This document shows, piece after piece, positions 7,330 to 59,189 of a DNA stretch of 64,000 nt. A model generated the notes under the pieces. That model did not search any database. It had not been told where the DNA came from and saw nothing but the letters and a program-made list of their open reading frames with translations. The position numbers and the translations under genes are program-made. Source of the stretch: Halomonas sp. (GTDB lineage: Bacteria > Pseudomonadota > Gammaproteobacteria > Pseudomonadales > Halomonadaceae); the NCBI GenBank assembly GCA_018401555.1, contig JAGYKP010000087.1:124001-188000 (forward strand), read 5' to 3'. How positions within the stretch are numbered: the first letter of the stretch is position 1; every line of letters starts with the position of its first letter.

Positions 7330-7454
7330 AAAGTAGCAAGAGATGATGTGCTACTTTCTACTTTCTACTTTCTACTTTCTACTTTCTACTCGACCTTCCG
7401 CTTGGCCGCTTGGCCGCTTGGCCGCTTGGCCGCTTGGCCGCTTGGCCGCTTGGC
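7330..7454. repeat. Tandem heptamer and octamer repeat block at the lipA 3' end
   Basis: Two adjacent tandem arrays in the lipB-lipA convergent gap. CTACTTT (7 bp) repeats about 5.7 times at 7351-7390. CTTGGCCG (8 bp) repeats six full times plus a partial copy at 7401-7454 and stops at the lipA stop codon. An inverted copy AAAGTAGC (7330-7337) pairs with GCTACTTT (7350-7357). Such arrays are prone to slippage; see the similar blocks at 22162, 27458, 52763 and 59150. Confidence 0.9.
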
Positions 7455-7455
7455 G

Positions 7456-8515
7456 TCAACCCACGTTGATGGCGTCGATGCGGTCGGGGATCGGGCTCCT
7501 GGCCAGGCACCTCGGCGGGGGCGGCCAGTCCCAGGTTGTTCTTCTCGAACACCCGGTCGGCGCGATAGCTGGAGCGCACCAGCGGACCCGCTGCGACCTC
7601 CATGAAGCCCTTCTCGAGCCCCAGGCGACGATAGCGGTCGAACTCCTCGGGGCTGACCCAGCGCTCCACCGGCAGGTGATTGCGGGTGGGGCGCAGGTAC
7701 TGGCCCAGGGTGACGATATCCACACCGATGGCGCGCAGGTCGTCGAAGGTGGTCAGGATCTCCTCGTCGGTCTCGCCGAGGCCGAGCATCAGGCTGGTCT
7801 TGGTCAGCACCTTCGGGTTGTGGGCCTTGGCGTGGGCGAGTACATCCAGGGTCTTGCGGTAGCCGGCGCGGGGGTCGCGGACCCGTTCGGTCAGGCGCTC
7901 GACGGTCTCGACGTTCTGGGCGAATACCTCGAGGCCGGAGTCGACGACCCTCTCGATGGCGGAGTGGGCGCCGTCGAAGTCAGGGGTCAGCGCCTCGACC
8001 ACTACCTCGGGGGTGTTGCTCTTGATGGCGCTGATGCACGCGGCGTAGTGGGCGGCACCACCGTCGTCGAGGTCGTCACGGTCCACCGAGGTGAGCACCA
8101 CGTAGCGCAGGCCCATCAGTTCCACCGACTTGGCGGTGTTGGCCGGCTCCTCGGCATCCAGCCAGCCGCCGGGGTTGCCGGTGTCCACGGCGCAGAAGCG
8201 GCAGGCGCGGGTGCACACCGAACCCATCAGCATGATGGTGGCGGTGCCGTTGCTCCAGCACTCGCCCATGTTGGGGCAGTGCGACTCGGCACAGACCGTG
8301 CTCAGGCGATGCTCGCTGACGTTGCGCTTGACGGCTTCGAAGCGCTCGCCGCCAGGGATCTGGGCGCGCAGCCACTTGGGCTTGCGGCCGGAGACGCCGC
8401 CGCCCTCGTCCTGCTGGGAACGCTGCTTGATGCCGTCCTTGATGGCGGCGAAGCCGTGTTCGGTGCGGAACTTCTTGCCGCTGGCGATGGTGGTTTTCGG
8501 GGTGCTTTCGCTCAT
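7456..8515 (-). CDS. lipA: Lipoyl synthase (radical SAM)
   Basis: Inserts two sulfur atoms into octanoyl-lipoyl domains using two 4Fe-4S clusters. The auxiliary cluster motif is in [13 protein letters not shown] and the radical-SAM motif is [11 protein letters not shown]. The start was chosen at ATG 8515 (MSESTPKTT), preceded by a GGAGGGG-type ribosome site; an upstream GTG would add an atypical extension. The current frame runs past the family end into the octamer repeat ([12 protein letters not shown] ...). A neighbouring frame gives the sensible end [10 protein letters not shown] with stop at 7456, so a one-base indel near 7500 is likely. Confidence 0.93.
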
Positions 8516-8831
8516 TGGGTGTGAGCCCCTCCGCTCGGCGTCTTTTGGGCCTGCCCGGCAACAGTGCTGCCCGTCTCGGCAGGGCATTGGCCCGGCCTGG
8601 CCCGCCTCGGCGCTATTGGGTTGCTGGTAACAGGCGCCAATTTACCATAGCTGCGCGCGCTCGGCATGGTATCGAGAGGTGGCCGGAGCTGTGCCGTAGC
8701 CGCCTTGAATCACACCGAAAACGAGTTGGGGCTCGTCTGTGGCAATAAACTGCGCTATATTGCAATGCAGCAAACGCCGGATTGACGAACCGTGCTCACT
8801 CTTCCCTGACCGCCAACACCAGGAGGTCACC
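8516..8831. promoter_or_regulatory. Divergent intergenic region lipA / DUF3141
   Basis: 316 bp with no gene. It must contain both promoters. A possible -10 for the rightward gene is TATATT at 8756-8761, overlapping the start of a small dyad TTGC-AATGCA-GCAA (8760-8773). Such TTGC/GCAA dyads resemble operators of PHA-metabolism regulators, but the match is weak. A strong ribosome site AGGAGGT (8821-8827) precedes ATG 8832. Confidence 0.4.
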
Positions 8832-58702: not shown

Positions 58703-58785
58703 ATACCTCAAGGAACAAGGCGTCAAGGAAGCAAGGGTGTGGCTCCCCTTGACCCCTTTAGTCCTTGCTCCCTTGGTTCCTCGCG
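58700..58785. repeat. Left flank repeats of the four-helix-bundle gene
   Basis: TCAAGGAACAAGGCGTCAAGG (58709) is roughly mirrored by CCCTTGACCCC, CCTTGCTCCCTTGGTTCCT (58747-58780). The last part codes for the C-terminus NQGSKD of the minus-strand gene. CTTGACCCC is the same octamer unit as the array on the other flank. Confidence 0.75.
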
Positions 58786-59114
58786 CTTTGCATCAACGCA
58801 TACAGCATCCGGGATAGCTCGCGGGATTCTTCGAGCCACTGCTTGCCTTGGGTCTTCCCGATGTAGCCAATATCCATGCCGATGTAGATCTGGGTTCGAA
58901 GTTCACCGCAGGATCCCTTGGCATAGCTGAGAAAACGTGACTTTTCCTTCATGCTGTCACGTTCGTAGCCTTCGGCGATGTTGCTGGCTATTGACAATGA
59001 CGATCTTGTGATCTGGTCACGAAAACCATAGTCACGAGAACCTTGGAAAGCCCGATAAATATCAGCACTGAGCCGCGCAGCCCGTTTCCAGGCATTCAAA
59101 TCTTCAAACTTCAT
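58758..59114 (-). CDS. Four-helix-bundle protein (S23/IVP, Avd-like family)
   Basis: 118-aa helical protein: MKFEDLNAWKRAARLSADIY ... SLSIASNIAEGYERDSMKEK ... SYAKGSCGELRTQIYIGMD, matching the S23/IVP family whose genes occur within 23S rRNA intervening sequences and next to diversity-generating retroelements, or alone. The biochemical role is unknown. ATG at 59114 chosen because the family starts MKFEDL or similar; a GTG at 59123 is an alternative. It sits antisense between wzb and wzc, flanked by CTTGACCC-type repeats, so it looks inserted. Confidence 0.85.
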   Translation of the reverse strand: MKFEDLNAWKRAARLSADIYRAFQGSRDYGFRDQITRSSLSIASNIAEGYERDSMKEKSRFLSYAKGSCGELRTQIYIGMDIGYIGKTQGKQWLEESRELSRMLYALMQSARNQGSKD

Positions 59115-59149
59115 TCTCGACACCGGTCAGCCCCTGCAGTCTCAAGATA

Positions 59150-59189
59150 GCACTCCTTGACCCCTTGACCCCTTGACCCCTTGATCCTC
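59150..59189. repeat. Octamer array CTTGACCC on the right flank
   Basis: About four copies of CTTGACCC (59155-59185) between the four-helix-bundle gene start and wzc, 15 bp before the wzc ATG. On the minus strand they read GGGGTCAAG. The same unit occurs once or twice beyond the other end of the gene at 58747. Confidence 0.9.

Follow-up and report, generated by a model that had tools for sequence, protein, structure and literature searches.

Tandem 7/8-bp arrays between Halomonas genes mostly follow the direction of the replication fork

Why tandem repeats with units of 7 or 8 bp should gather at gene ends, and what makes them, is the question raised by a stretch of 64,000 nt from Halomonas sp. 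(JAGYKP010000087.1), referred to here as the window, whose positions serve as our coordinates. The original prediction had described the arrays as one dispersed family of related words, placed non-randomly at gene ends and made by an agent that was not obvious. Every array it named is present in the window. The account is incomplete, in that replication direction is the governing variable. Relative to the fork, the arrays make up the distal end of dispersed 3'-end modules.

Orientation was read in three genomes, G024, G026 and G004, in which dnaA lies near position 1 and dif at 1.91, 1.84 and 1.87 Mb, respectively, by comparing the pyrimidine-rich (CTTG-type) strand of each array with the direction of the fork. 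Arrays less than 250 bp apart were joined and the longest kept, and arrays lying more than half inside called genes were dropped. At 42/45 merged loci the pyrimidine-rich strand points the way the fork moves (p = 9e-10), namely at 29/30 in G024, 6/6 in G026 and 7/9 in G004. The loci had partly been picked by a strand-symmetric motif search, and the choice therefore favours no orientation. Without merging, 34 arrays of at least 8 copies run with the fork and 2 against it, compared with 4 and 2 at 5-8 copies and 7 and 2 at 3-5 copies; short repeats of 2.5-3 copies split 4 to 3 and those of 2-2.5 copies 15 to 25, with one tie in each of these two classes. Polarity in long arrays and none in two-copy repeats points to growth rather than to seed words.

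The same picture emerged at the scale of whole genomes. A pattern of seven CTTGNNN units gave forward matches in G024 exclusively below 1.8 Mb (78/78); among the listed part of its 56 reverse matches (to 3.02 Mb), 2 lie at 1.32 Mb and 20 beyond 2.15 Mb. The pattern matches of G026 were reverse in 85/85 cases, at 2.85-3.20 Mb. Synteny with G004, at both the lipA end and the yjbH-wzz end, gives the + strand of the window as the fork direction, and 7/7 of its 7/8-bp arrays carry the pyrimidine-rich strand on +.

Gene context sharpens this polarity. Forty-four loci have a gene on both sides, one of the 45 being left out for a one-sided gene call (this locus itself runs against the fork). Seen in the frame of the fork, 23 lie between convergent genes, 16 between co-directional tandem genes, 3 between head-on tandem genes and 2 between divergent genes, and all convergent and all co-directional tandem loci are fork-oriented (23/23 and 16/16, together 39/39). 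The comparison of head-on with co-directional tandem loci against background is only suggestive (p = 0.06). Of the arrays at convergent loci, 18/23 have their distal end at -2 to +5 nt relative to the head-on stop, and 0/23 reach to within 5 nt of the co-directional one; at co-directional tandem loci 1/16 come this close to the upstream stop. Placement at gene ends is indeed non-random, and inside convergent gaps the arrays are far from uniformly positioned. Abutment to head-on stops was taken as a second test of polarity because the sign of the pyrimidine rule is opposite for units of G041 such as CTGGGCG. The arrays used for this were those of at least 4 copies from five genomes, unmerged and with those more than half in genes dropped; the fork direction of G041 and G045 was read from GC skew. 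Of these arrays, 31 abutted a head-on stop (-16 to +5 nt), 2 a co-directional stop and 48 neither.

In the window, the suggestion that arrays sit within a few bases of stop codons held for lipA, mfd and yjbH (-1 to +3 nt) and failed for the arrays at 27457 and 59155. A single nucleotide lies between the end of the lipA array and the stop TCA at 7456-7458, whose position is as in relatives, and the distances for the C-terminal open reading frame (ORF) of mfd and for yjbH are -1 and 3 nt. By comparison, the 27457 array follows a GAPDH-type stop by 91 nt and precedes the nqrA ORF by 165 nt, and the 59155 array lies 19 nt upstream of a Wzz/Wzc-like start codon and therefore not at a gene end. The second lipA-side array, first given as six copies from 7401, was measured at 7398-7454 with 7.1 copies. 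An integrase had been named too, with a short repeat at its end; the short repeat at 61582 lies within the final codons of an ORF of 165 aa that has no Pfam match at E <= 1e-5, so that this identity is not confirmed.

The arrays also show a preference for certain unit lengths. Our sample of the host genome comprised 404,294 bases (the window and 18 other stretches) and was searched for perfect arrays of at least 3 copies and at least 18 bp with periods of 2-20. It held 8 arrays of period 7, 3 of period 8 and 2 of period 6, and 7/11 of the period-7/8 arrays fall in the window. When the sequence was resampled twice with a third-order Markov model, 3 period-6 arrays arose in total and none of period 7 or 8. 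Period-7/8 arrays exceed chance and period-6 arrays are at chance level, an excess of 7-nt units that places the arrays among the long heptanucleotide simple sequence repeats (SSRs). Other genomes agree, though their samples were partly picked for arrays: in 985 kb of G024, G026 and G004 surveyed in this way for periods 4-40, intergenic arrays of at least 3 copies numbered 46 for period 7, 5 for period 8 and 4 for period 14. Like such SSRs, the Halomonas arrays are mainly intergenic; exceptions are the lipA 8-mer, through which the called lipA frame runs, and one 7-mer of G061 (L211:7408) in a called frame. Arrays recur in related genomes, and 28/61 genomes of the genus match a pattern of five CTTGNNN units; even spread through intergenic DNA and confinement to this assembly, which would have spoken against the family, were both absent. 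At gathering thresholds, Rfam gave no match in the window.

The modules typically share one layout along the direction of replication: a co-directional stop, CNAG heptads, a strong hairpin, a linker that often closes with CANNCTG, the array, and then an opposing stop or the region of the next start. The proximal CNAG heptads are imperfect, often arranged as the 14-mer AGCTACAAGCGCCG, and the array is a perfect repeat of a mostly CTNG-type 7- or 8-mer. Several word families share this layout (CTTGCAG, CGCTTGGC with CTTTCTA, TTCCAGC, CTTGCTC and CTGGGCG), and the description as one dispersed family with related words holds. The inverted partners reported near arrays were likewise recovered. Arm and array stand in no more than a general inverted relation (reverse complement versus same strand, p = 6e-6); 14-mer arrays lay on the proximal arm, on the opposite strand, in 4/4 cases. 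The motif CANNCTG occurs at most 16 nt before the array in 27/66 cases and in 8/36 once similar upstream regions are removed, against a background of 1.8% and 1/36 and 2/37 in two control stretches. Module copies at non-orthologous places reach 97.8% identity over 89 nt. All four modules that were folded gave hairpins with z of -3.5 to -5.3, and a hairpin of -12 kcal/mol or lower lies within 130 nt upstream at 43/44 loci, a count made with no control set, at a median distance of 27 nt (10-35 nt at 28/44 loci). Several hairpins carry T-rich tails, but a consensus scan for terminators, which covered 2 regions, returned none in either.

Both units and copy numbers turn over between relatives. Among the best 30 of 59 genomes with a matching lipA, 5 loci have lipA-side arrays of at least 3 copies, with CCAAGCGG x7 and GTAGAAA x6 in our own genome and CCAAGCGG x12 (L038), AAGCTGA (L041), GCGCCGA (L043) and AGCGCCC (L046) elsewhere; at two of these 30 loci (L041, L045) the lipB side bears a 14-mer array. 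At the lipA position H. alimentaria carries TGCAAGC x7.6, another unit than the window, and units are exchanged between sister species. Copy number varies as well: an orthologous array has 14.3 copies in G004 and 4.3 in G061 (H. alimentaria) with 100-bp flanks 96% identical, the GAPDH-nqrA array has 5.7 in the window and 8.4 in H. alimentaria, and the mfd array 12.6 and 12.1. Many matching gene ends in relatives have no array, and neither does that of yjbH in G004. Near the yjbH locus of G004, at L226:3599-3664, we also noted CCCTTGAC x8.2, whose cyclic unit equals that of the window array at 59155, in another place.

For the observed period preference, architecture, polarity, abutment, and turnover of units and copy numbers, the explanation to which we give about even credence is replication-coupled growth, in which an array lengthens by slippage of 7/8 nt beyond a 3'-end hairpin, with the fork, up to a selected sequence. 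Slippage during replication would add steps of 7-8 nt beyond the hairpin, and pausing or re-priming at the hairpin or terminator would differ between leading and lagging strand, an asymmetry proposed as the reason why growth runs with the fork. The array would overwrite neutral DNA until a selected sequence is reached, and its halt there may account for the abrupt end at a stop codon. Such growth, from the hairpin to the first selected base, would give abutment to head-on stops and a looser end before a next gene, and gene conversion between modules would yield near-identical copies at other loci and exchange of units. Two routes fit the data, which do not separate them: the lagging-strand polymerase may slip at a hairpin in its template, or the leading strand may be re-primed when RNA polymerase is overtaken at a terminator by the fork. 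For co-directional collisions, the available portion of one paper describes takeover of the mRNA and re-priming downstream (PMC8464059). More tentatively, and in our estimation rather improbably, the arrays could be a record of replisome encounters at terminators: where a co-directional gene ends, the fork would overtake RNA polymerase and re-prime or slip beyond the terminator, adding 7-8 nt each time. Re-priming or slippage just beyond the terminator would then explain why growth occurs only with the fork and stops where selection begins; the step might be the size of the polymerase-held duplex, and array length would report the local frequency of collisions.

Several points weigh against replication-coupled growth. 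Three of the 45 loci run opposite to the fork, two of them in G004, one some 7 kb from dnaA and the other 7 kb from dif, and the third a 3-copy array of G024 that lacks a called gene on one side; G004 taken alone gives 7 versus 2 (p = 0.18). A GTTCGAG array of G007 runs opposite to the fork. Arrays of this GTTC type were sought in 8 other single- or two-contig genomes and numbered 1 in G007, 2 in G050, 1 degenerate match in G029 and none in the other 5; the two of G050 lie near mid-chromosome in a genome with no dif match and are uninformative on polarity. Under a second orientation rule, applied to arrays of at least 4 copies, CNAG in place of CTNG lies on the fork strand in 14/81, and 6/81 are ambiguous, some of these being proximal arms. 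The loci are not fully independent, because modules are homologous copies, and the gene calls come from a home-made caller. The linker is asymmetric too, so that the whole module, and not array growth alone, may be fork-locked. At 15/44 loci the strongest hairpin lies 38-94 nt from the array, and the step of 7-8 nt is left unexplained by the slippage model. The idea that each distal unit is copied from the proximal arm of its own locus was considered and rejected, within-locus matches (8.83) being no better than cross-locus ones (8.76, p = 0.40).

The polarity counts do not include G061 (NZ_WUTT01000001.1), a record with runs of N in which 230 kb separate dnaA (2.03 Mb) from dif (2.26 Mb), so that its scaffold order looks doubtful. 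Taken at face value, the dnaA position would set its arrays at 2.04, 2.34 and 2.67 Mb opposite to the fork. The exception of G004 near dnaA is a pair of arrays at L202:7026-7149 (CAAGGAG x7.3 and GGAGCAG x11.3), beside which stand CACGTGGAACA/CACGTGAAACA motifs that we take to be parS-like.

It is possible, though on balance unlikely, that the useful orientation was kept by selection for function, the module protecting or terminating transcripts where forks meet head-on genes (3'-end stability, termination or conflict relief). The strong hairpins beside the arrays, both those folded and those counted upstream with no control set, and the abutment to head-on stops agree with such a role, but 16 loci lie between co-directional genes in the same orientation with no head-on neighbour, neither units nor copy numbers are stable, and at many matching gene ends there is no array.

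We also doubt that the modules are small mobile elements, with the array as a part, that insert in one orientation via the single-stranded lagging-strand template as IS200/IS605 and perhaps REPs do. Transposition of single-stranded DNA into this template predicts a fixed orientation too, and IS608 and ISDra2 target the lagging strand according to the available text (PMC6006769). The near-identical copies noted above occur on opposite replichores with their orientation flipped to follow the fork, and the linker is partly conserved in addition to being asymmetric. Y1_Tnp is somewhat commoner where arrays abound, in 8/12 array-rich genomes (at least 20 array matches; 12 of 61 in the genus) versus 22/49 others. 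However, the Y1 domain (PF01797), the sole transposase type searched, gave no match in four of the 12 (G024, G026, G034 and G048), of which G024 and G026 are single-contig. Moreover, the right end is not fixed, as arrays stop at whichever stop codon is there and often overlap it, and units differ at one place between relatives.

Far less probable is ordinary heptamer slippage without polarity, tolerated in spacers and purged from genes and promoters: arrays within called genes are mostly of period 6, 9 or 15, as it would have them, but it predicts neither the fork orientation of 42/45 loci nor the abutment of 18 versus 0 and is contradicted by both. That the arrays are an artefact of a metagenome-like assembly can practically be dismissed, for despite several broken frames and a called coding fraction of 0.70, versus 0.86 and 0.87 in two relatives, like arrays stand in independent assemblies, single-contig ones included, and at matching sites of H. 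alimentaria.

Heptamer repeats are already known; the fork polarity is the new result. The literature searched, which covered few subscription papers, held no report of a fork-polarised heptamer family. Specific heptamer units are found as the STRR heptamers of heterocystous cyanobacteria. Three tandem heptanucleotides are described for Calothrix (PMC4692102; this and the other papers compared here are drawn on in their available portions), and for the heptamer excess of bacterial genomes polymerase contact length has been proposed as cause (PMC4679880, PMC4692102, citing Mrazek et al. 2007). Prokaryotic long heptanucleotide SSRs share the period-7 preference with the Halomonas arrays, but the available portions of these accounts make no mention of the replication polarity or terminator module seen here (PMC4679880, PMC4692102). 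The GGGNATC repeats of Xanthomonas and Nostoc are likewise heptamers, mainly intergenic, often at most 50 bp from stops and, in Xanthomonas, arranged in inverted pairs; unlike the Halomonas arrays, with other units and up to 30 copies, they form G-quadruplexes and prefer four units (PMC4692102). The G-tract unit is absent from our family, whose units are CTTGCAG, CGCTTGGC, CTTTCTA and others. GGGAATC of Xanthomonas, the heptamer examined in most detail in the literature searched, is reported to have no preference for leading or lagging strand (PMC4692102), in contrast to the strong fork polarity of Halomonas, where orientation is not independent of replication. Beggiatoaceae have intergenic tandem repeats of TAACTGA at many loci, a single unit mainly upstream of starts (PMC4679880), whereas Halomonas has many units, mostly downstream of stops. 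REP/BIME elements with RAYT are dispersed, intergenic and palindromic as well (PMC2817692, PMC6006769) but differ from the Halomonas modules, which have a tandem heptamer array and a fork-locked orientation and occur in the four array-rich genomes without a Y1/HUH transposase match.

The instability of CTG/CAG repeats depends on their orientation relative to the direction of replication. As in our proposal, it is tied to DNA synthesis in model systems (PMC3310812, available portion); those repeats are trinucleotides, whereas Halomonas presents a natural genome-wide pattern of 7/8-mers. So far, only the contact-length proposal addresses the question of why the long repeats of bacteria are dominated by heptamers. 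Several dozen natural fork-oriented arrays, many of them next to an unexpanded arm that can serve as a control, make this question testable, link the birth of tandem repeats to 3' hairpins and replication direction, and offer fast-changing, fork-oriented markers for Halomonas. The features of the window are collected in Table 1.

Table 1 Arrays and associated module parts in the window.
Feature	Position	Strand	Basis
Inverted partner of the CTACTTT array: imperfect GTAG/AAAGTAG words facing CTACTTT	7320..7350	+	sequence
CTACTTT x5.7	7351..7390	+	repeat search
CCGCTTGG x7.1, 1 nt from lipA stop	7398..7454	+	repeat search; H. alimentaria comparison
CNAG-heptad arm (AAGCYACAAG...GGAGCAAG), two 51-bp copies	22027..22126	+	
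GCTTGCA x12.6, overlaps mfd stop by 1 nt	22160..22247	+	
CNAG heptads 3' of GAPDH-type gene (stop 27363-27365)	27374..27396	+	
Strong hairpin with T-rich tail, fold z = -3.6 (91-nt region); not listed by consensus scan	27397..27436	+	
Junction motif CANNCTG (CATACTG), directly 5' of CTTGCAG array	27449..27455	+	
CTTGCAG x5.7	27457..27496	+	
CTTTCTA x4.3	52762..52791	+	
CTCGCAG x7.3, 3 nt from yjbH stop	52790..52840	+	
Degenerate CAAGCTA/AAGCCAC heptads, unexpanded	54884..54944	+	
CCTTGACC x3.8, 19 nt 5' of Wzz/Wzc-like start codon	59155..59184	+	
AGCTTGT x2.6 within end of small ORF	61582..61599	+	

The host is near H. alimentaria DSM 15356, with LipA 99% identical and a DNA identity of 93% over 7.3 kb. 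The frames of mfd (22247-25629), yjbH (52844-54789) and lipA (7379-8515) are broken in its assembly, and relatives have an intact lipA, which suggests that the assembly is error-prone. Between 33000 and 44000 the G+C content falls to about 54% and few genes are called, and beyond about 34.1 kb the window has no match to the H. alimentaria stretches compared; this region is possibly an acquired island. A tandem 108-bp repeat at 52431-52638 contains REP-like GTAGGAGGGAGGC...GGAGGCCGAAGGCCTCC palindromes, with short similar stretches elsewhere in G004, and the REP-like GTAGGAG copies near 52480 lie apart from the arrays. Finally, inverted repeats built on GGGGTCAGACCCC / GGGTCTGACCC occur at 52659-52741 and 61516-61562 and also at the yjbH end of G004.
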